Assembly: GCA_033819885.1 (NCBI GenBank)
Contig: JAQYUZ010000020.1
Location: 124,001 to 188,000 of the forward strand
Direction of reading: 5' to 3'
DNA length: 64,000 nt
Source: Microbotryomycetes sp. JL201
Lineage: Eukaryota; Basidiomycota; Microbotryomycetes
Shown here: piece after piece, positions 38,382-52,015 of the stretch
Position numbering within the stretch: the stretch's first letter is position 1
How the letters are laid out: each line of letters starts with the position of its first letter
Notes under the pieces: generated by a model
What the model saw: the letters and a program-made list of their open reading frames with translations, nothing else
Database searches by the model: none
Told to the model about the DNA's origin: nothing
Made by a program: the position numbers and the translations under genes

Positions 38382-39553
38382 TCAAGCCAAGAGAGCAGCG
38401 GCGGCAACAACGACGGCGCCCAAAGACATGGCTGTCTTGCCAGCGCCTGAAGTTGGAGACGTAGCTGCAGGAGCCGGCGCAGATTGCGAGTTTGATGCGG
38501 ACGAGGCCGGGGCAGATGTCTGGCTCGAGACTCGGGAGCTCGTCATACGGCTAGCAGACGACGAGGCCGCAGCTGACGAGACTGACAAAGTCGCAGTGTT
38601 CTGACAGCGAGAGAGAGAGAGAGAAGATCAGACTTTGTTCCGAACGAACCCTGTATTGACTTACAACTGCCGAAGTCTCAACGACAGAGCCTGTTGGCTC
38701 GCCGTTCTGGACGGTGAAGAACGACGCGGCGACGAGCTCGAGACCAGTGTTTTGGACGTACTCTTGAACGTTCCATGGACCGATATCAATGTCAGTGCCA
38801 GACAAGTTCTGCGGCGGCTCGAAACGAGCAGGCTGCAAAAACAGAAGCCAAGCGTAGCGATGAGGTCCGGAACCGGCCAGCGGCCCAGGTCCAGCGTAGC
38901 TCGTGACTTCGTTGCCATCGTCGATTTCGCCGTCTTGCTCGCGCTTGGCAGAGTTCTCCAGGTAGTGACGGTAGTTGGGCGTAGGATCACCGAGCGAGTT
39001 GGCGTCGGCGAGCACTAGCGTGAAGAGCGTCGAGTTTGTAAAGTCTGAAGCGTCGGCTTCGGCGGGAGCGAACGACACTGATGGCTTGTCTGACACTTGG
39101 TCGGCCGTGTACGCTTGGCCGTTTCTGAGAGTGCAATGACATTGAGGATTCGAAGCGGGACTTTTATTTTTTCCCTTAAAGTATGCTCACTCGACGACTC
39201 CAAAGCTCTCGTACTCGACAGTCAACAAGCCGCGCGACTTGAGCTCGATGCCGAATCCTCTTTCACTGTGTCACCGAAGCAACCCGGTCGGCGAGAGGGG
39301 CGGTGCGTGCGTGCGTGCGTGCGTGCGCGCGGGTGTGAAGACGAGATCATGAGCGTGTCAGCGGTCTGGGTACTACATCAAAAGACGCGTCGGCGATAAC
39401 TAACGGTGCCTGTGCAAAGCCCGAGTTTGCGTATTGCGCGTCGACGAGCGCGAGTTGCTCGGCCGTTGGCGTCGCAGACGTGCCATTCGACTGCTGGGCA
39501 GACACGGTAGCAGCGGCGTACGCGCAAGCAACGAGTGCGAATCGGGCGAGCAT
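38382..39553 (-). CDS. Secreted PEBP-family protein with predicted GPI anchor
   Basis: Phosphatidylethanolamine-binding-protein fold, here as a cell-surface protein. Seen: signal peptide MLARFALVACAYAAATVSA, then a PEBP domain: VEYESFGVVENGQAYTADQV, TLVLADANSLGDPTPNY with RHYLENS, and the core YAGPGPLAGSGPHRYAWLLF followed by LQPARFEPP. A Ser/Thr/Ala-rich tail (SSAAASSSASRMTSS) ends in a hydrophobic run, MSLGAVVVAAAALLA, typical of a GPI attachment signal. Introns: one at about 38604-38665 with a (GA)n run, one at 39128-39193 region, and one holding a (TGCG)n microsatellite at 39304-39328. Cytosolic PEBPs such as Tfs1 lack both signals. Ligand unknown. Confidence 0.8.
39304..39328. repeat. 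(TGCG)n microsatellite
   Basis: About six tandem TGCG units in the first intron of the PEBP gene. Confidence 0.85.
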
Positions 39554-39624
39554 CCTTGTGGCTGCGTTGGAAAAAGCAGAATGAGCTACGTTCGGCGCGC
39601 GCGTCTAACATCCTGAAAAATACC

Positions 39625-39895
39625 AAATTGTGCGTCGATTACCCGTGCTCTCGTCGCGGCTCGTGTGCACATGAGACCTGATCGTGAGACTGTGAGCTGC
39701 GGTTCGTTCATCCTCATTTTCTGACGTACCAGTCACGTGACATTCAACTTGGCGAGAGAGTTGTCGGTACTATTTGTTCAATCAGATACTATGACAACTT
39801 GATCTACGTGCTGTACTTGCCATGGCCTGCCCCTATCATCGCACGTTGGTAACTCCGCTTGGCCGTCCCGCGTAAACGGAAGCTTGTTCTTGCAA
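39625..39895 (+). repeat. Direct repeat DR-A (copy 1)
   Basis: About 260 bases that align along their whole length with 44250-44530 in the same orientation, roughly three quarters identical by eye. Shared words include CTCTCGTCGC near the start, TCACGTGACATTCAACT in the middle, CTATGAC and GGTAACTCCGCTT near the end. It lies immediately upstream of the PEBP gene start (39553, minus strand). TCACGTGA occurs at 39733-39740. Confidence 0.75.
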
Positions 39896-40798
39896 TTGCA
39901 ACACTCTTTCCTTCCCGAAACAAAAGAGGCGTTAACAGCGCGCCGTGCTCGTCACAAAAGCTATATCGATCGCTAGGTCGGCCTCCGATGAGAACCACCA
40001 CGACAAATGCTAAGCTCTTGGAATTCTAAGCATGGCAGGGCACCGACCTAGGTGACCTGAAAAAGAAGAAAGAAAAATGAAAAGAAGAGATCGATTTGGC
40101 CCTGAGGGCCGGCGCTGTCGACTGCCAGGATCTGAACCGTCAAGCTCGTCAGCGTTTTGGGTCCAGAATGTGGGTGATAGACTGTCAACCTACAGAGCAA
40201 AAGTGGGAAGGAAAGAGGTGAGCTACACCAGGCTCAGGTGTGCACAATGGTAGCTGAAGGGCGCGAGTCAGCCTTGAACGTTCCAATTGCTTGAATTGCC
40301 AGCACTGATTGTATGAGGGTCGTGAAGGACTGAAGCTCAACAGAAACTACTAGAGAAACCTGGCCAAATACAATCCGCAGTGTTCGAGATCTGAAACATA
40401 AGAAAGTCGAACATAAAGAAAAAGAGATGAAAAGGCGGTTCGGTGGAGAAGCGTTTACCCGAATCGTCTTAGGTCATTGGATCTTTGTAAAGTCGAGGCG
40501 TTGAGTGTCTCGGCGTTACATCGTCAGTCTACAGCATTCCGGGTCAGAGGATTCTATAATCAACGAGGCCAGAAACGAGGCCAGCTGGTGCTTGAAAGCG
40601 ACAGCAATCCGTTCGGCACAATTTGTCAGCTTCCTGTGCCTGACCCGCTGACCATGGCTGTGCTTGACGAGTGCGACATAGAAATAGCCGGTGAGGCTTT
40701 CTCCAAAGTCCGGCAAAGCTGTCCTTAGACTGGGAAGCCGTTTTCCCTCTTGTGCTTCTTCTTAATGAAGTGATTCGATCGTCTGAGACTCTGTCGAC

Positions 40799-41746
40799 AT
40801 GAACCACAAAATTCAATCGCGCGCAGTCGGACGACATACGCCAACACCGCCCAAAGCTGCGACAAGGGGTGAGGCACCCGGCCAAGTGTATTCCTTATTC
40901 GATAGACACATACCCAGCTTGCCGGACGAACACTGGAACAAACACAACTGGGCACGCTCAGATGACGGCAGTTACGCTCCTGATAGCGATGGTGACGACG
41001 ACGGCGACGACGATCATTTGCTAAGGCGACGGCGATCAATTGCTCCCTCCAGTAGCCGATGGCGAAAGCGTTATCGCAGAAGCAGACGAAGCCAGCACAG
41101 ATGAAGACATTGAAGGTGATTCATCCACGACCGACTCTACGCGCGGATCGTGTGTTTATCAGTATTGACGCACGACCGCTATTGTTCACAGCGCCAGACG
41201 CAGACGAAGACCCGACGGATTCGCACATCGTCGACACGCGCGCCCGCATGACGACCCAGACTAGTTTGGAGAAGGCGGAGAACCCCACCGCGGTCCTCCG
41301 CTTAGCCGCTTCTATGACATCGTCACCCGTCGGTTCCAATTCAGCAATATTTACTCGCCAGGTCCTGGGCAGCCTCTACAGCCGCTGCATGTCTGGCTCG
41401 AGCTCGAGCGACAGCTCATGTTGTCCGCACTGCCCTCAATCGCCGCCCTCAATCGCCGACTGCGTACGGTCTTGGTCGACGAAAGGCGCCGCACTCGCTC
41501 CGTCAGTCAACATGGCGTCCCGTCTGACAGACCCGGCTGCGGTCTCCAAGACCATCGAATTTGTCATCCGGAGTTTGACTGATGGGACAGACCGCATCGT
41601 GCCCACATTTCTGCCAATGCCACAGCTAGGCCTGCGCGGGCGACGAGGACAGCCTCTCGGCACCCCCCTTATCCATCCTATTACGCATAGCAAACGCCAC
41701 AGGTGCCAAGCCGACCGGCGGTGGACAGCTCATCGTCTGGATCTAA
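40799..41746 (+). other. Unresolved coding traces leading into palindrome 1 (left side)
   Basis: A plus-strand frame starts MNHKIQSRAVGRHTPTPPKA at 40799 with an acidic stretch SDGDDDGDDD. Further downstream other frames look protein-like (FYDIVTRRFQFSNIYSPGPG, LELERQLMLSALPSIAALNR), and the last block, RIANATGAKPTGGGQLIVWI, ends at a stop codon at 41744-41746 inside the left arm of the palindrome. A matching block is found on the minus strand of the right arm. The pieces lie in different frames; introns may join some, but I could not build one consistent gene. No family recognised. Confidence 0.3.
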
Positions 41747-42558
41747 ATGAGGCCCGAATCGAGGAGTCGAAGCGCTGCTGCGACAGTCGAAGGTGAGTGC
41801 GAGCTCACACCCCCAAATAAGACCCCGGTTGTTGACTCTCATGCCACAAAAGGTCGACATCTGTCTCCTTGAGGCAATCGCAGAGATGCGAGCTGTAATG
41901 GTCGTCCTTTGCCGAGGTGTCGCTACAAAGCAATCTGGAAACCGTATGCCCTACAAATGGCTAAATCACTCTCAACCTCAGGCAAGCAAAAGGCCAAGGC
42001 TTCAATCTCAAACGCTTTTGCGTTTCAATCTCGCCACAAGGCTCGATCTCTTGGGTAATCAGGAAGCGCCAGACCTCGTCATCGATCACGACACTGTCGA
42101 GCTCTGCCGCGAGTCCCGTTGCAAGGTGGCGTCGACCGTGATCGATGATGAGGTCTGGCGCCTCCTGATTACCCAAGAGATCGAGCCTTGTGGCGAGATT
42201 GAAACGCGAGAGCGTGTGAGATTGAAGCCTTGGCCTTTTGCTTGCCTGAGGTTGAGAGTGATTTAGCCATTTGTAGGGCATACGGTTTCCAGATTGCTTT
42301 GTAGCGACACCTCGGCAAAGGACGACCATTACAGCTCGCATCTCTGCGATTGCCTCAAGGAGACAGATGTCGACCTTTTGTGGCATGAGAGTCAACAACC
42401 GGGGTCTTATTTGGGGGTGTGAGCTCGCACTCACCTTCGACTGTCGCAGCAGCGCTTCGACTCCTCGATTCGGGCCTCATTTAGATCCAGACGATGAGCT
42501 GTCCACCGCCGGCCGGCTTGGCACCTGTGGCGTTTGCTATGCGTATACGATGGATAAG
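41668..42558. repeat. Palindrome 1: near-perfect inverted repeat with a 46-bp spacer
   Basis: Arms 41668-42090 and 42137-42558 are reverse complements with only about five differences seen over some 420 bases, outside the ragged outer ends. The spacer is 42091-42136. The two DNA strands therefore read almost the same, and both carry the same 157-codon open frame (from about 41793 plus and 42434 minus). Each arm also carries the last coding block ending GGGQLIVWI and a stop, so two gene ends face each other tail to tail. A transcript crossing it would fold into a 420-bp hairpin. Confidence 0.95.
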
Positions 42559-43997
42559 CCAGTGTGTAATCGCGGTCATGTTGACCCTGTCGGATGTGGT
42601 GGAGCCGTGACCGAGATGACAATAAAACGTGGGTAGGGTGGTAATCCTGAAACCCAGATGTCAGCTTGGTCATTTCACCGCGGACGCCTCGCACGAGACT
42701 TACAATGCTCACGCCGCCACAGCTATGACATTGCCAGTTGATCAGTGGAAGCGCCTTGTATCTCGGTCGCTCGAGCAATGCCGAGACTGATGGTGATTCG
42801 ATGAGTACGAGTGGCTGTTGGACACTGCCAGCAAGCCACCGAGGTCCGAGATCCCTCAGGACATTCATCTTTCGACGGAAATCAGCTACATGCTCTCATA
42901 TTCGACCTTGGACAGGTCAAAGACGACAGATTTACTCGAAGAGTCTTGGGCAACGACGCGTTCAACCAAATCGTTGATGGCGTACACCCCGTTGCGCTTA
43001 CCCGACACATCCTGTCAACGCACTTGTCTGTATTATTTGATGTCACGATCCACCGAGCCGTCTTGACGCGCATCAATCGTCGTCACAAAGTCAATCTGCC
43101 AGACCGCCGCTCTAATACTGGAGTTGTTAGTCGGCGCACCACATCGCAGATCTGGACGCCGGCTCTCAGTTTCGTCCACGGGATCGAGGGTCGCCTGTCG
43201 GTGGTTACAGAGATGCTCGGTGCCCAGGGCGGCACGGTGTCTCGGCGCGTCCAAGCCAAGAAAGTTGGCTCTGGACGTTTGGACCAGAGGACTGCCGCGG
43301 GTCGTGGGGAGTTCCGACCTCTCAAGGATTCGCCGTATGCTGACGCCAGCAGACGATTCAAGTCCGGCCGACATTGTCAAATCGATCAACAATGATTGGA
43401 TCATCGTGTCGATCAACGCCACAGGACTGGACACCTTGACCCTTTCGATACTCGCTTTTGATCACGAGCACCGGCGAGTCGATCGCGTAGTCGAGCTTGA
43501 CGACAACATTTTCAGAAAGGTCTCGCAGGCCATGGCCGCAGAAGCTCACCTACGGGCACAGGAGCTTGCTCACGATACCGACAACTCTATCGGCAAGCAG
43601 ATCGGTCGGCATACTGCCTTGCATCAGACGGTAATCGTGCGCAAAGTCATGGCCGAGAAGCAGCACGCGTGTGACAAATGTGTTCTTGGCGGCAGGCGTG
43701 TTCAAGACGAGTCACGATGGACGTGTGGCCGGCAATGCTGCCGAGCGACTACCAGGGCAATTCACTTTCTCGCACCTTTCATCGATTCAACCGCTCAAGC
43801 TTCTTATCGTCGTCAGCAAAAAGGTCTCGCACAAAGTAAATCAGCTCTCGACAGTCTTTCAAGACTTCCTCAGACGCTTCGAAGTGGAAGCCGCGTCGCG
43901 TGCGATACCGCTCGTATTCTTTCGTGCCGACCCGACAGACGCTTCTTCCGTGTGCGGTACAATACTTGCAGGCATGAGTTTCTGAGACGACGTACAC
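42481..43997 (-). other. Unresolved coding traces leading into palindrome 1 (right side)
   Basis: On the minus strand, a frame at 43997-43779 reads ETHACKYCTAHGRSVCRVG then KEYERYRTRRGFHFEASEEV and ends at a stop; its C-x2-C and later C suggest a metal-binding site. Nearer the palindrome an intron-like segment starts GTAAGTCTCG and ends GGGTTTCAG, followed by ITTLPTFYCHLGHGSTTSDR and a final block RIANATGAKPAGGGQLIVWI with a stop at 42483-42481. The end block is the paralogue of the one on the left side. Exons between 42.8 and 43.7 kb could not be ordered with confidence; the opposite strand also has a long open frame there. No family recognised. Confidence 0.3.
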
Positions 43998-44249
43998 GGT
44001 GAGTGACCTGACGACCTTTGATTGCAGCTATTGATCGGTATCGTCTAAGTGTACTCCTGCACCAAATGGTCGGTCCAACCTGTTCTTTTGCCCGAGCTGC
44101 GGAGAAACATGGAACGTTGGCGTCCTGGCGGCGATTGACATTCGATTCATTGCCGTTCATCAGCTGATTTTTCTATGGAGAGCATCCATTTGTGCAATCT
44201 CAATATTCCTAATCAGCTCACCCACAGCGGCAACGCGGTGAGCGAAAAA

Positions 44250-44530
44250 CAACAAACTGCGCGTTGGTAGCCCGTACTCTCGTCGCAGCTGCACTGCAAA
44301 TGACACTGGCTCGTACTCCTTATGAGATTGTGAGCTGGGTTCCAATCATTATCACTTTCTAATATACCGATCACGTGACATTCAACTAGGCGAGAGAGCT
44401 ATCAATACCAGGTTTTGAATCAGACACTATGACGACTCGATCTACATGCTGCGCTTGTCTTGGCGTGTCCCTCTTTGCGCTCCTCGGTAACTCCGCTTCG
44501 CCTCCCGTTCAGTGAACCTTGTTTGCCTCT
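44250..44530 (+). repeat. Direct repeat DR-A (copy 2)
   Basis: Second copy of the repeat at 39625-39895, same orientation. TCACGTGA is at 44371-44378. It lies immediately upstream of the DUF2235 gene, so both copies sit in front of a gene start, one on each strand. With copy 1 it brackets the palindrome region. Confidence 0.75.
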
Positions 44531-44535
44531 GCTCG

Positions 44536-46541
44536 ATGACCCCGCCAACACCGAGTGTCGTGCCAGTGCGAAGGCACACATCGCGTAACAAGACGTGGAC
44601 TGCACCGCGCAAGCATGCCGGGCTTCGTGTCCAAGCACACGCGTTGGCGATGGCCGTGCCGGCTGCTCCTGCACAAGCCGCGGACGACACTCCACCAACG
44701 GCGCGCCTGCAGGCAATCCCGGACGACCACAAAAACGGACGCAACCTCGTGCTGATATTCGACGGCACAAACAACACGTTCGAGTCCGAGGTGAGCGCGT
44801 TCATTCGCAGTAGCTTGCACGCTTGCTAAAGTTGTATCGAGGTCAGCTCACCTCCTTGCCGCTGTAAGCGGCACTTGCACGAGAAACTCTTCAGGGCCGA
44901 TCAAACAACGATACCTCTTGCAGCCTGTTTTCATTCTTGTCGACAGATACTCGTTACCAACTGGCTTAGTGAGCAACCGGAAATCTCCAGCGTCCTCTCT
45001 CCCCTTTAACGACGGGCTGAGCTTGATGAATCTTTCGCAGCTACCAGACAGGAATCGGCACGTACACAGCTGGCTGGTCACCTTCCGGTCTCGTACAAGG
45101 CTTCTGGCGATTCTTAGATTCTGTTGCAGCGTGGAACCTGCCTGAGCAGTGCGTCAAGCTCACGATGCTAGTTGCAAGCCGCTGATCGACCACATGCGCA
45201 GTGTCAAGGGTGGTTACGAGTACCTATGCAACTACTGTCAGCTCAATCAAGTTTTCGAGCATATTCAGCTACTCACTCCTGGCAATTCTTGCAGACCAAC
45301 CGGGCGACCGCATCTTCCTGTTTGGGTTCTCTAGAGGCGCCTACACTGCACGTGCCCTCGCCGGCATGTGTCAGCAGGTTGGATTGCTGATGCCAGGCAA
45401 CAAAGAATCTGTCGACCTCGCTTACGACATTTACTCGAGAGGGGCCAACGCCAAACTGTCGCCCGAGGCAAACGTTGGCTTGGCAGACGCATTCCACGAC
45501 ATGTTCTCACGGACGATCTCGATTCATTTCGTCGGAGTCTGGGATACGGTCGCCTCTGTTGGATTTCTGACACCGAAAACTCTGCCATTTTCTTCCGGCT
45601 CCTCGATGGTCTCACATTTTCGCCACTGTCTCGCTCTCGATGAGCATCGAGTTCGATTTATACCTCAAGTGTGGCTGAGCGACGATGCTGCCAATGGTGA
45701 TCCAAACGACAAGGGTTTGCTCGTCTCCGGATGCGAGCCGACGACCAAGGAAGTTTGGTTCAGTGGCGCGCACAGCAACATCGGAGGCGGTCAGACCGCT
45801 ACGGACGGAGACAGATCGCCTCGCCTCTCCCATCTGCCACTGAGGTGGATGATTCGAGAAGCGGTCGAACAAGGCCTTTTACTCGACATTGAAGTCGTCG
45901 AAAACTCGCCTTTGTTTACGCCATTCTTGACTCGTGCACAGAAAATGTTTGACGCCCAAGACGAACAGCTCTCGAGGTACCTCGATAAGTTTGGTCCATC
46001 GTTCCATCGCAAGATGGATCCGGCTTTGTGCGCTTTAATCTTTGTCTCTACTTTGCCAGGCGAAGAGAACACAAAGGCTGCACGCGCACCACGTGGTGAC
46101 CGATTGAGTCTGCATATTGCACTTGACCCGAAAGCGAAACGTATCACCGGAATGTGGAGCAGGATCAAACAGCGACTAGCAGCATTGCCCTGGATCCTAA
46201 TGGAGTGGCTTCCTTTGAAGGTAATACAGTGGGATGTACAGGGCAAACCCTTGCATCAAGGCACAGTGTGCGTCACAAGTAGATGATTTTCTTGTTATCC
46301 TCCACTGACGCCACCTTTGGTTTTCACGAATAGCATCCATCGAGGGCGAGGTCGTACGATGCCGCCGAACCCAGTCTGGCACTATTCCGTCAGAGAGCGC
46401 ATGAATGCGACAGCGGCCGACTTTATCGCTCAAGGCCAGGGTCAAGACAACTCGTCCGTCCCGGAGACTGTGCCATACAAACCAAAAGCGAGATTCCTTC
46501 AAGAGGAAGGCGTCCACTTATGGGACGATGGAGGGTTCTGA
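44536..46541 (+). CDS. DUF2235 protein (Tle1-like alpha/beta hydrolase)
   Basis: Predicted serine hydrolase of the DUF2235 family, related to bacterial Tle1 phospholipase effectors and common in fungi. Seen: NLVLIFDGTNNTFESE (oxyanion-side Asp-Gly motif), YQTGIGTYTAGWSPSGLVQG, FWRFLDSVAAWNLPEQ, nucleophile elbow DRIFLFGFSRGAYTARALAG, ISIHFVGVWDTVASVG, HCLALDEHRVRFIPQVW and EVWFSGAHSNIGGG, then a C-terminal region ending EEGVHLWDDGGF. The exons between 44791 (donor after ESE) and about 45040 are unclear, so about 20 residues may be missing from my reading. Start MTPPTPSVV at 44536; an alternative ATG is near 44650. The end is 32 bases from the end of the convergent esterase gene. Confidence 0.82.
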
Positions 46542-46573
46542 GCTTTGGAATTTGGAGTTTCAGTATCGGGCAT

Positions 46574-47563
46574 TCACCGTAGCTGCTTGAGAATATCGAC
46601 TACCGCGCCATATGCCTCGTCCCGAGCCTCGCTGTCCCCGGTTTTATTCATATTGATATCCCACGCGTGATCTCGCCCCTCAAACATCTTGTACACAATC
46701 TTTCGCTCGCTCGGACCCTGTTGTCCGCTCGCTTGAGCTCTCGTTCGAGCTGTGCGCAGTTGCTCGACAAAGTTTTCCATCTCTGGCACAAGTGAATCTC
46801 TTCCGCCTGTAAAGACAACGACCGTGTCTGGCATAGCTTCAATCTGCTCCTGCGTTGACGACATTGACATTCTCGGATCCTTTTTGACGCTCGGACGCGT
46901 GAAGTCACCTCCGTCGTTCAACCACTCGACTTGATTCGACAATCCGAGATAGGCATCGTTGAACAACTTTTGAAACTTGTGAGGTATACCAAGAGAATAC
47001 GGTGCGTCTTTTGGTGCTTCTGGGGCGATTCGTGTACCAAATGGAGTCGACAGGTCGGCTGGATAGAATGTAATGACGGCATCCACCTTGTTTCGAAGGT
47101 CGATCGGAGCGTTCGAAGAGACTGTCAATGCCAAATTACCACCAGCCGAGAAGCCCGACAAGACCAGCCGACTTTGTGGGGACAGGTTTGTGGCGAGGTA
47201 AGACAGAACATCTTCGACGTCCTCGTAAGCATGCGGGAATGGCCATTCAGGTGCGAGCCTGTATGCGACGTCGTACACAATCACGTTCGCCTCGTCTGCA
47301 ATGCGTCTCGCGAACGCGTCCGATTCACCGTGACACGGAAGCACGAACCCGGATCCATGCATGTTGATGACGACTCGCGCTGTTTGTTTCTGTTCCTGCG
47401 TCATTTCACGAGGCTCGTACACGTGAACCTTGATTCCGTGGCCATCTCGCGCCTTGATGTGGAGCACGTGATCAGGTGCGGGCGCAGGCCACTTGCGTGT
47501 TAGCCGAGAGATTGCTCGGATGAGCATGACTGTCGCTTTGAGCCTCAGGTAAGAGGGAGCCAT
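46574..47563 (-). CDS. HSL-type alpha/beta hydrolase (esterase/deacetylase)
   Basis: Single-exon esterase of the hormone-sensitive-lipase group, a rare intronless gene in this window. Seen: oxyanion motif NMHGSGFVLPCHG (HGSG rather than the usual HGGG), YRLAPEWPFPHAYEDVEDVL, nucleophile elbow LSGFSAGGNLAL, catalytic Asp in VVFTGGRDSLVPEMENF and catalytic His in FEGRDHAWDI. About 329 residues from MAPSYLRLKATV, normal for the family. A hydrophobic N-terminus could anchor it weakly. Substrate unknown; small acyl or acetyl esters are typical. Confidence 0.88.
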   Translation of the reverse strand: MAPSYLRLKATVMLIRAISRLTRKWPAPAPDHVLHIKARDGHGIKVHVYEPREMTQEQKQTARVVINMHGSGFVLPCHGESDAFARRIADEANVIVYDVAYRLAPEWPFPHAYEDVEDVLSYLATNLSPQSRLVLSGFSAGGNLALTVSSNAPIDLRNKVDAVITFYPADLSTPFGTRIAPEAPKDAPYSLGIPHKFQKLFNDAYLGLSNQVEWLNDGGDFTRPSVKKDPRMSMSSTQEQIEAMPDTVVVFTGGRDSLVPEMENFVEQLRTARTRAQASGQQGPSERKIVYKMFEGRDHAWDINMNKTGDSEARDEAYGAVVDILKQLR

Positions 47564-47764
47564 GGTGCAGGAGCAGAGCGCAAGGTCATCCACCACCCGG
47601 CGAGCAGCACTTGTATCGGCATATCCCGTTCATTACCGGTTATCAATTCGCTATCGAGTTAATAATACCCGAGAATGGTAACGGAGTGGTGGTCAAACAT
47701 TGCAACAAGACAAATGCCCAAACATTATGCGGCACGTCGGGCCATCTGCAGCAAAGAGACACGT

Positions 47765-49599
47765 TCAGCTTTCAGCCAGGTATAAAACAGGACGGGTTGT
47801 GCCGCTTACGTCGATAATCTTCCATCCTCCGGTAACCTTGTTGTCGAGCTCCTCCTCTTTCCTCGTAAACACGGCAACATAACCCACTTGCTGGATCCGG
47901 TCCTCGTCACCTGCAGCAATCTGGCCAGTCTTGATGTCCCGGTACGCCAGCACTTCTTGCGTCCTCCACGCAACAACAAACACATGGAGGTCGTTTTCAA
48001 GAATCTTTGAAGACATGATCTGTGTGAAACACTCAAGCTCAATTTCACGCTTCACTTGGATGCGAAGCGTGTGCCTGTCGACTCACGTCCAGGTTCCGGA
48101 TGTCGAGCACGCGCGACTCGCTGATCAGAGAAGGTGACACTGACCCTTGCAGGGTCGCCATCAGAACGTTGAATGTCTACCAATGTCGGAAAGATCAGTC
48201 GATGCGGAATCAGAAGGTCAAGCGTTGGCCACTCACAGCTTCAGAGCACCACTCTTTCAATGTAGCTTGATCTGCGTTGACATATGCATCCACGACTTCT
48301 GGAACGATATATTCCCTCAATTCTCTCAAGAAGCTTTCGGTTGTAAATTCGGGGTCCATCTCCTTGACCCATCGTGTGACTTTGCTGGTTTCTGTCTCGT
48401 CAAACCACCGCCCGACGGTCGAGGTCACGCCGCGCAGCGTCAGGACGAATGGATTCTCGGATTCTGCGTACGCTTGAGACATCGAGTCGAGAGCGTCTCT
48501 GACTGGCTTGGGCGTGAACGCGGACAGACGAGACTTTTTCTCTTGGTTGGCTGTGGCGTGAACGACGACAGCCTCTCCGGCGCTGCGCGAAAACGTCAGT
48601 GACGCCCTATGAAAGCGTACGACGACGCAGTTGGACCATATGCTCACTCGAGATTCTCTTCGACTTTGGGCCTCCTGGCAGCGAGTCCTGCCTTGCCCTT
48701 GCCTGCCTTGGCAAGCCGCTGCTCTCGTCGCCTCCGTCTGACCTCCTTGTCGACGTAGCCACCGTGTTGCGTGTTGACTGCCGCGTTTTCGAGCGCTTCT
48801 GTGATTTCTGCTGCGACAGCCTTGTAAGCCTCAGTTTTGCGCAGAGGTTCTGAAGCCGTCAGAGCGGCCGAGCCGACAGCTCGTGCGGATGCGTTGAGCT
48901 GGATTCGAGCAAAAGTAAGTAAACCAGTGGCGCTCACGAGACTGATTCACGCCGGCAAGGTGGACATACAGCCTGGACGACGCTGCTCTCTTCCATCGTT
49001 TTGAGCGTATGGTTGACGGCGTCTCCGACCGAGATGCCTGCCTTGCGCAGCTCCTCCGCCGCTGCAGCCAAGCGCGGGTTCTCCTTGATTGATGTGGTGA
49101 GCTGTTCGAGATGCGTTCACGTCAGTGTCTGCTGACTAGGCACATGAGCCGACGCCGGAGTGTTTTTCGTCGGGGGGTCCGTGCGGCGGCGGCGGCCGGG
49201 GACGGCGAGACTGACCCTCGCGCGCTCGTACATGAGCTTTGCTCGCTTCATTGCTTCCGAATCTTGAGCCTTGGACACCTCGCCTTCGAGCTGTGCGACG
49301 CTCTGCTGCCATTCGCGCGACTTTTGCATCTCTTCGCGCAAGACATCGACAAACGCCTTGAACGGCGACCGGCCTTCGACGGTGCGATCCTGAGGCTCCT
49401 CCTGTTGTTTTTGCTGTTGTTGTTGCTGCTGCTGCTTTTTGCTTTGCTGCTCTTGCTGCTGCTTGTCGTCTGGCTGCTGCTGCTGCCGCCGGGCCGCCGA
49501 CGCGTGCACAAACCTCGCCCGGGCATGCACGCCAGCCGACGAAGACGGGCGAGATGCTGCTGTAGCTGACCGTGCCGCCTGTCTGACGGCAGCTTTCAT
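47765..49599 (-). CDS. TIM44: Mitochondrial import translocase subunit Tim44
   Basis: Peripheral inner-membrane protein that tethers mtHsp70 to the TIM23 channel. Seen: presequence-like MKAAVRQAARSATAASRPSS, a Gln-rich tract of about 30 residues (CTG/TTG codons on the plus strand near 49400-49490), FKAFVDVLREEMQKSREWQQ, KAGISVGDAVNHTLKTMEES, a basic linker KEVRRRRREQRLAKAGKGK, then the Tim44/Mba1-like C-terminal domain: MDPEFTTESFLRELREYIVP, EVVDAYVNADQATLKEWCSE, VFVVAWRTQEVLAYRD and YVAVFTRKEEELDNKVTGGW. Start chosen at 49599 because it gives a clean targeting peptide; an ATG at 49641 adds 14 charged residues. The polyglutamine tract is not usual for the family. Several short introns. Confidence 0.92.
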
Positions 49600-49764
49600 G
49601 TCGTCGTCGTGTCTTGAGCGATGCGACTCGAGCTTGGCCAAGTTTCCGGCGTCGCTTACTGCTGCGCACCGTCATTGCATGCACGGGTACGACACGTAAA
49701 AACCCAGCAACTGTCATGCTCTCATACGTCTCTCTGCTGAGTCTACATCAAATGGGAAGGCCTC

Positions 49765-49835
49765 CTATTTGATGACTTCATATACGCTCTCTTAAAGCTT
49801 ATAGGTCACCCTATTAATATCGTCTCACTGAATAG
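49765..49835 (+). ncRNA. Candidate box C/D snoRNA
   Basis: A C-box-like TTGATGA at 49769-49775 and a D-box CTGA at 49828-49831 are directly flanked by CTAT (49765-49768) and ATAG (49832-49835), which can pair as a 4-bp terminal stem. Size, about 71 nt, is normal. The guide would be the bases just 5' of CTGA (TATCGTCTCA). No convincing D' or C' box was seen, and chance cannot be excluded. Confidence 0.25.
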
Positions 49836-50274
49836 CTCCGAATCTGGCACAGAATGAAAGAAATACATCCAGAGATATATGTAATGGGCTATGCGGACTG
49901 TGAAAGCGTCACTGTATGCTGCGGTGCGCGTGCGCGCCCGTCTTTTCGCGGCGGCGCAATGGGAGGACGAGGCAGCGGCGGCGCTCGGCGCGGCGCCGGT
50001 CGCAAACGAGCGGGGTGGCGTGACTAAGGTCAACCAGCACGCGAAGATGGCACCCGTGCGTCGAGACGCGTCGCCGCGAGATGCGTCATCGTTGATCGAC
50101 CCAAGTTGTGCAGGGCAAGCAACACTCTCAATCTCTGGCGATGGGGGAGCTACGCTGGCTCCTCTGTTTGGTGTGTCTTAGTATACCAGCTTTCAAGCTT
50201 CTTCAATCGACGCGCACGTTGCTTTGACAGCCCAAACAGCTCAGACTGCCGCCAGTCGAGATGCGCGAAATTCT

Positions 50275-50748
50275 ACCTACGCGACTCGACGAGGGTCGAA
50301 TAATACTGCGTGAACAAGAAGTTGTCGTCAATGAATCGTGGATCATCCGACTAAATCAAGTGCAAAGCAAGAATTGGAGGGTTGCTTGCTACCTGAACCC
50401 GCAACCCGCGCTTGGCGACTTTAATTATTTTACAGCTTCGCAAATCAAGGTCCTCATCCAGGAACAGTGGCTCTATACATGTCCTCTACTCCAAGGGGGT
50501 CGCTGCTATCTGGACGATAGTCTGGGCGGTCTGGGGGAGGACATGTGAAGAGCCACTGTTCGTGGATGAGGATTTGGATTCGCGAAGCTGTAAAATCTTC
50601 AAAGTCGCCGAGCGCGGGTTGCGGGTTCGGGTAGTAAGCAACCCTCCAATTCTTGCTCTGCACTTGATGTAGTCGGATGATCCACGATTCATTGACGACA
50701 CCTTCTTGTTCACGCAGTATTATTCGACCCTCGTCGAGTCGCGTAGGT
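50275..50748. repeat. Palindrome 2: inverted repeat with a 50-bp spacer
   Basis: Arms 50275-50486 and 50537-50748 are reverse complements with 16 mismatches over 212 bases and no gap. The spacer 50487-50536 itself contains a small hairpin (CTATC, TGGAC loop, GATAG). As in palindrome 1, both strands carry a similar open frame with LDEGRIILREQE, VNESWIIRL, VQSKNWRVA and PQPALGDF. Most arm differences change the residue, so selection on this frame is doubtful. No flanking target duplication was seen. Confidence 0.95.
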
Positions 50749-51011
50749 ATCTTCATTAGCCTATTTAAGCCGCTCTTTGGCTTCTTTAATGACCTAAGCT
50801 TGAAGTGAGAGAGCCACAGAGCGCTGGGCGCCCGTCAAAAGAGGACCAGACGTCCATGGAAGGCGCGGCGCTGTAGTTTACTCCTTTCCTTTTTCTCTCT
50901 TTTTTTTTCGTTTTTGGTTGTTTTCGAAATCCCAGGGGCACAAGTGGAGGGCCGTAACATAAGCTCCCGAGTGACTGTGCCCCGCCGCGCCGTTCATTCT
51001 AGCGCAAGCGC

Positions 51012-52015
51012 ATGTTTCGAATTGCCCGCTTGAATCTCTCCAAGAAGATTGCAATTGGCTCAACAGCAGCAGCAGCCGTCGTCGTCGCATCGTCATTGTC
51101 TTCGTCCCCGATCGGCGTCCGCGCATCGCTGCACTCGACAGCCACTCAGCTGTGGGCCGCAACGACTCACACGCTCGGAGCATTCACAAGCTCGCCTTTG
51201 AGAATGGCTTCAGACGACAGCAACCAGTGGCCAAAGGGCAAGTCCGAGGACGAGTGGCGAGTTCAGCTCAGCCCGGAACAGTTCAGGGTCAGTAGGATGC
51301 CAGTGATCTCCACTGGCGCCAAGACGAAGCCAACACAGAGATCAGAATGGCGCTCACATACTACATCATCGGCTCCCGGCAGATCCTCCGTAAGAAAGGA
51401 ACCGAAATGGCCGGTACAGGAGAATACGACTCGCATTATCCGCAAAAGGGCGTCTACGAGTGTGCAGGCAAGTCCATTGTCGATGTCATTCTCGCCCAAC
51501 AAGAAATCATGACGTCTTTGTCGCCCTCGTCCACTGCTCACGCCTCGTTTTCGCACACGCGCAGGTTGTGGTTCCCCGCTGTACAACTATTCAACAAAGT
51601 TCAAATCAGGCTGCGGGTGGCCTGCCTTTTTTGATTCTATCGTAAGAGCTGACGCCTTGAGGAACAATAAACTGCTTACTCACATCCTCATCGCAAAAAC
51701 CAGCCTGGGGCTGTCGTACAAAAGACAGACTCGTCGTGGGGCATGCAACGCACCGAGATCCTGTGCGCCCAGTGTGGAGGTCACTTGGGTCACTTGTTTG
51801 TGAGTGACGTCGATCAGCGCTTCCGTACAGACCACTGATGCTCGTGGCTCCTGCTCATCAGAAAGGCGAAGGTTTCAACACGCCCACTGACGAGCGAGCT
51901 TGTGTCAAGTGCGTAGACAGTCTCACACGTCCGGAACTGTCGTTGACTAATCAGTATCTACTTCGGCAGCTCTGTCAGCATCAAGTACAACCCAAATGGC
52001 GAAGAACAAAAGTGA
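51012..52015 (+). CDS. MsrB: Peptide methionine-R-sulfoxide reductase
   Basis: Reduces methionine-R-sulfoxide in proteins. Exons 51012-51287, 51383-51467, 51565-51641, 51704-51799, 51862-51908 and 51970-52015 join in phase into 208 residues. Seen: [99 protein letters not shown]. The two CxxC zinc sites and the resolving region are present; the catalytic position near the end is Cys in ACVNSVS. Intron 51468-51564 begins GCAAGT, a GC-AG intron. The N-terminal 60 residues ([15 protein letters not shown] onwards) look like a mitochondrial presequence; an internal ATG (MASDDSNQW) could give a cytosolic form. Confidence 0.93.

Follow-up and report, generated by a model that had tools for sequence, protein, structure and literature searches.

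Long palindromes are usually regarded as rare and unstable. A near-perfect one (here, I1) lies in a 64,000-nucleotide stretch of contig C13 (C13:124001-188000; here, the window), and it raises the question of whether such a structure is real and isolated, how its arms came to be so alike, and whether a transcript across it could feed RNA silencing. Our analysis leads us to regard I1 as real and as one of several such structures, most probably the product of inverted duplication by fold-back, a mechanism of a known kind.

Structure, number, and surroundings of the palindromes

An inverted-repeat search of the window recovered the ungapped arms of I1 as two 409-nt segments that are 99% complementary and lie 46 nt apart, and a gapped local alignment reproduces the full extent of 41668-42558 that had been proposed in the first-pass annotation. 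Of the 433 columns in this alignment, 7 are substitutions and 6 are gaps, and the loop shrinks to 31 bp once the gapped extension is counted. The arms had been described as near-perfect, with about five differences between them; the description stands, and the 409-column core contains six differing columns. The accompanying proposal that the arms are either recent or homogenised agrees with their near-perfect match. As RNA, I1 is computed to fold into one long hairpin of -909 kcal/mol, compared with a mean of -304 kcal/mol for 20 shuffled sequences.

When the arm DNA was searched against the 17.15-Mb, 92-contig genome, the two matches were the two I1 arms themselves, and each I1 flank likewise occurred once. 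Here and below, "single locus" holds at the sensitivity of this search, in which very common words were skipped and the best candidates alone were scored. A direct repeat is placed nearly symmetrically about the I1 centre (Table 1). The frame that adjoins I1 (43067-43999) has no Pfam match, and the frame at 45186-46283, about 2.6 kb from I1, encodes a Tle1-like phospholipase catalytic domain (PF09994, E 3.7e-53). No Rfam family was found in window positions 39000-52000. A scan for bacterial promoters and terminators, which carries no meaning for a eukaryote, also found nothing.

A reading of I1 as an isolated oddity is not borne out. Five unrelated long inverted repeats (I1, I2, P94, P96, and P200) exist in the 194 kb of C13 that were read (64001-258000, window included), out of a scanned stretch of 198 kb with 4 kb masked. 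One of them, I2, lies in the same window and goes unmentioned in the first-pass annotation. All five, I1 among them, are closely spaced imperfect inverted repeats, with arm identities ranging from 70 to 97%. At the same thresholds, no long inverted repeat appeared in any of five dinucleotide-shuffled versions of the C13 stretch.

Table 1. Positions of the palindromes and associated repeats (window coordinates unless prefixed with a contig name)
Feature	Position	Strand	Length	Remarks
I1 left arm	41668..42100	+	433 nt	gapped extent; ungapped core 41682-42090
I1 spacer	42091..42136	.	46 bp	between ungapped cores; 31 bp (42101-42131) with gapped extension
I1 right arm	42132..42558	-		gapped extent; ungapped core 42137-42545
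Direct repeat, left copy	39615..39870	+		73% identical to right copy over 265 columns; middle about 2.4 kb from I1 centre
Direct repeat, right copy	44244..44507	+		73% identical to left copy over 265 columns; middle about 2.3 kb from I1 centre
I2 left flank	49813..50272	+		blastn match to C15:149389-149853, 84% over 475 columns
I2 left arm	50274..50486	+	213 nt	inverted-repeat search; whole palindrome 50274-50749
I2 spacer	50487..50536	.	50 bp
I2 right arm	50537..50749	-	213 nt	92% identical to left arm
I2 right flank	50818..50953	+		match to C15:151817-151951, 78% over 140 columns
P94	C13:93751-94850		arm 516 nt	arms 70% identical; spacer 49 bp
P96	C13:96408-97226		arm 354 nt	arms 95% identical; spacer 109 bp
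P200	C13:199752-200285		arm 245 nt	arms 90% identical; spacer 41 bp

The local density of unrelated long palindromes on C13 is unusual. The window was picked because of I1; the 190 kb read elsewhere, made up of 130 kb from C13, 50 kb from C1, and 10 kb from C15, yielded three. All three are on C13, and neither C1 nor C15 contributed any. If the C13 rate held, zero palindromes in these 60 kb would be expected about one time in five by Poisson arithmetic, and C13 therefore cannot be called special. Scaled to the 17.15-Mb assembly, the rate outside the window would correspond to some 270 palindromes and that of the C13 stretch to some 440. Among the titles listed by our literature searches, none reports long palindromes dispersed in this way through the nuclear genome of a fungus.

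A short-range scan of higher sensitivity picked up inverted arms about 40 bp long in C15 and no longer than 50 bp in C1. For C13 and C1, it detected no arms intermediate in length between some 50 bp and the long palindromes, and because of this size gap the five palindromes constitute a discrete class. Such a class is a poor fit with slow growth from tiny repeats. Two other repeat structures were observed: (i) several inverted repeats clustered at C15 ~146230-146360, each arm being about 40 bp long, and (ii) a direct duplication of about 1.1 kb on C13 (218321-219392 and 220167-221229), whose copies are 66% identical.

I2 differs in setting from I1 in that both of its flanks have a counterpart on C15. 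Between the two flank matches, C15 carries 1963 bp of other sequence. In this unit duplicated on C15, then, either I2 took the place of other sequence or other sequence took the place of I2. The left arm of I2 is one base away from the end of the left blastn match; a gapped local alignment of the left flank with C15 carries on for 24 bases inside the arm, where its quality is low. Because the C15 match runs almost up to the palindrome, both I2 arms look foreign to the left flank, and a simple one-sided duplication in place therefore does not fully explain I2. Two blocks of the left flank, 50035-50099 (65 bp) and 50232-50272 (41 bp), are identical to C15 within the 84% alignment, as if conserved.

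Palindromes are hard to sequence, and a fold-back chimera generated during assembly or library preparation could in principle mimic the structures described here. However, the arms differ by 3 to 30%, the left flanks are unlike the right flanks, the I1 flanks are single-copy, and the sites lie within a 281-kb contig. An assembly fold-back is disfavoured because the flanks differ and the arms are imperfect. Judged from the sequence, an artefact at I1 is unlikely, and we give the artefact explanation almost no weight.

Kinship among the five palindromes

The arms of all five palindromes lack a further locus in the genome by DNA search, and the arm-to-arm comparisons (10 of 10 pairs) score inside the range of shuffled sequences. 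Since the arms are single-locus and the pairs unrelated, each palindrome was either made in place or derived from a source that our searches did not find.

Fold-back transposons and MITEs consist of long inverted repeats around a short centre, and the five palindromes share this anatomy. It is conceivable that they are transposable elements of this type, with the long terminal inverted repeats making up the whole element. Their discrete sizes would agree with this, as would the position of I2 inside a two-copy unit common to C15, where it might represent a mobile element whose interior has been exchanged, and the two direct repeats that flank I1. The five sequences differ from one another, however, and each is found at a single locus rather than as several copies with a common terminal sequence. 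The longest direct words shared by the flanks (14 bases on each side) are 3, 3, 3, 5, and 5 nt for I1, I2, P94, P96, and P200, respectively. The first-pass annotation had noted no sign of a mobile element at I1, and the 3-nt word, together with the single-locus arm and flanks, upholds that reading. Because the arms differ, are single-locus, and lack shared ends or a clear target-site duplication, a transposon family is unlikely. At the sensitivity of our searches, which revealed no further copies, shared ends, or clear target duplications, we rejected it, and we regard fold-back or MITE-type elements in general as quite improbable. The palindromes thus resemble fold-back transposons and MITEs in having long inverted repeats with a short centre, but differ from them in lacking family kinship, shared ends, and clear target duplications.

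Arm differences and proposed fold-back copying

Where the arms differ, the differences tend to lie toward the loop. Counting all differing columns, a loop-ward shift is seen in all five palindromes (p = 0.0028, 0.0043, 0.025, 0.033, and 0.0001 for I1, I2, P94, P96, and P200, respectively). When an indel is counted as one event in the same alignment, two of the five stay below 0.05 (I2, p = 0.006; P200, p = 0.0002), and the other three lie above it (I1, 0.15; P94, 0.17; P96, 0.08), with a Fisher value of 2e-5. Event counts in a looser alignment give 0.0002 for P96, 0.27 for I1, and 0.74 for P94 (Fisher 8e-7), and those in a stricter alignment give 0.32, 0.27, and 0.65, respectively (Fisher 6e-4). 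After trimming of both ends to exact 12-mers, which removes the diverged inner part of P200, I1 (0.022) and I2 (0.009) are significant and the other three are not (Fisher 0.017); the pooled halves then contain 34 and 42 differences (p = 0.21). The outer fifths of I2, P96, and P200 contain no differences under all three scorings. Thus, the loop-ward gradient is firm in I2 and in the untrimmed P200, suggestive in I1 and P96, where it depends on the counting method, and absent in P94 by event counts. In the I1 core, five of the six differences fall within the inner fifth; the outer fifth of I1 holds three differences, which gives the U shape that ordinary gene conversion would also produce. Classical conversion would be expected to leave both edges more diverged, a pattern that I1 alone fits as well.

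This U shape bears on the possibility that the palindromes are pieces of genes duplicated tail to tail, whose likeness is maintained by ordinary gene conversion (ectopic recombination) and needs no special fold-back process. Each arm of I1, I2, and P200 is traversed by an open frame, which in I1 measures 171 aa in either direction, and the best of six frames shows an excess of third-position changes in I1 (5 of 7 substitutions) and in a stop-free frame of P200 (11 of 22); I2, on the other hand, has no codon-position bias. The codon scores of the I1 arm frames (-0.012 and 0.005) exceed the upper quartile (-0.027) of 449 small ORFs and fall below the scores of two known genes (0.018 and 0.055). 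The ten arm-frame scores range from -0.081 to 0.009, and because codon bias is weak in this genome, they do not discriminate. Four arm proteins, one each from I1, I2, P200, and P94, have no Pfam match at E 0.1, and in a genome search the 171-aa frame of I1 matches nothing but its own mirror copy. Among the candidate stretches searched for a viral relative of this frame, one viral-contig match was found (residues 1-29, 55%, E 9e-4), which we dismissed as chance. A protein-coding reading of the arms was rejected, given the missing Pfam matches, codon scores that do not discriminate, and a third-position excess restricted to I1 and P200 in their best frames. That the arms are, or once were, coding is possible, and an origin from gene pieces by ordinary conversion appears improbable.

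The explanation that we favour, with somewhat better than even confidence, is that all five are interrupted (quasi-)palindromes born by fold-back template switching, or snap-back, whose arms were later re-copied. A 3' end at a stalled fork or a resected break would fold back at a short inverted repeat, use its own strand as a template over some hundreds of bases, and then return to the original template. The loop would be left as the spacer and may keep the hairpin tolerable for replication. Later template switches or conversion would re-copy one arm from the other. Because fold-back copying would run outward from the pairing point near the loop, each event would renew the outer stem, so that the outer stem should stay alike while the loop-proximal part drifts. 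Outward copying of this kind therefore predicts both a loop-ward gradient and arms with no relatives elsewhere. The same process would have made at least four other unrelated palindromes on C13, at different times, as their range of arm identity suggests. Alongside the observed structure, the five-member class, the unrelated single-locus arms, and a loop-ward bias that is firm in two of the five, we infer the fold-back mechanism, its timing, and the tolerance of the spacer with moderate confidence.

Template switching homogenises the arms of inverted repeats in Saccharomyces cerevisiae, according to the available text of PMC8604942, and that of PMC3820800 likewise describes yeast template switching that homogenises inverted-repeat arms. 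Hairpins are created and maintained by template switching, and a stem is possible in one event, in the account excerpted from PMC8794818. In yeast deficient in Mre11 or Sae2, repeats of 5 to 9 bp can seed snap-back palindromic duplication, as stated in the accessible portion of PMC7999016. According to the same review, forks stalled at inverted Alus in Escherichia coli, yeast, and primate cells alike when the spacer was 12 bp, whereas with a 52-bp spacer frequent fork stalling was seen in E. coli only. The first-pass claim that long perfect palindromes are unstable thus needs qualifying: stalling at inverted Alus depends on the spacer, and that of I1 measures 31 to 46 bp. The 31- to 109-bp spacers may explain why the palindromes of C13 survive.

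RNA silencing and comparison with known systems

A profile search placed a Piwi domain above the cut-off at C2:417186-418224, in two pieces without stops, which marks the locus as encoding an Argonaute; in the PDB, the larger of the two frames is most similar to chains that bear the name Argonaute-2 (E 4e-59). This Argonaute and the size of the genome point to a eukaryote, probably a fungus. An RNA-dependent RNA polymerase (RdRP; PF05183) gave no match in the genome portion searched, and the profile control was silent as well. For RNase III, five candidates from the same portion were scored with PF00636, yielding one weak match (28.2 bits against a cut-off of 27) in a frame that we take to be a mitochondrial ribosomal protein. 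With PF14622, neither of two candidates from that portion matched, and 8 of 14 controls did. Argonaute is thus present where profile searches of the genome portion found neither RdRP nor a canonical Dicer.

It is in this setting that the suggestion of a natural Dicer substrate at I1 has to be judged. If transcribed, the palindromes would readily supply long hairpin RNA in a genome that also encodes an Argonaute, and because no RdRP was found, hairpins would be a natural source of double-stranded RNA. In wild-type Naumovozyma castellii, palindromic loci give 74.1% of siRNA-locus reads, according to the available text of PMC7528652, and for this reason the Dicer-substrate idea is a fair hypothesis. 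By analogy, the palindromes could be functional hairpin-RNA loci, whose transcripts are cut to small RNAs and loaded onto Argonaute; the very stable predicted hairpin of I1 is in keeping with this. However, no Dicer-like RNase III was found in the genome portion searched, and the part of the window around I1 and I2 is empty of Rfam families. Arm changes compatible with G-U pairing also show no consistent strand excess (plus/minus strand, 3/2, 6/3, 27/38, 4/3, and 6/7 in the five palindromes; 46 plus and 53 minus in total), and selection on RNA pairing was rejected on this basis. We consider functional hairpin-RNA loci possible but rather unlikely. A broader proposal, in which hundreds of unrelated hairpin loci (an extrapolation from a small sample) are born by fold-back and feed an Argonaute pathway that works with neither RdRP nor canonical Dicer, is a long shot.

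The main point of interest is the local density of unrelated palindromes. Several of them in about 200 kb, with graded identity, offer natural material for studying how palindromes are born, what spacer size is tolerable, and how alike the arms remain. Three known systems invite comparison. (i) The palindromic siRNA loci of N. castellii resemble ours in combining inverted repeats with an Argonaute-bearing genome and in giving hairpin transcripts, if ours are transcribed (PMC7528652, available text); here, however, the searches used found no Dicer. (ii) The mitochondrial coding palindromes of Nematomorpha share with ours the presence of numerous long inverted repeats in one genome. Those described in the accessible part of PMC6649704 are perfect, up to 284 bp long, mitochondrial, and located inside genes, whereas ours are imperfect, lie on a contig of the main assembly, and have no demonstrated gene. 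(iii) The template-switch quasi-palindromes of yeast, E. coli, and RNA-gene hairpins are likewise imperfect inverted repeats, in which copying of one arm from the other makes the two alike. As far as the excerpts of PMC8604942 and PMC8794818 go, the former concerns short inverted repeats and the latter RNA stems, whereas the C13 palindromes have arms of 213 to 516 nt, and several unrelated ones share a single contig.
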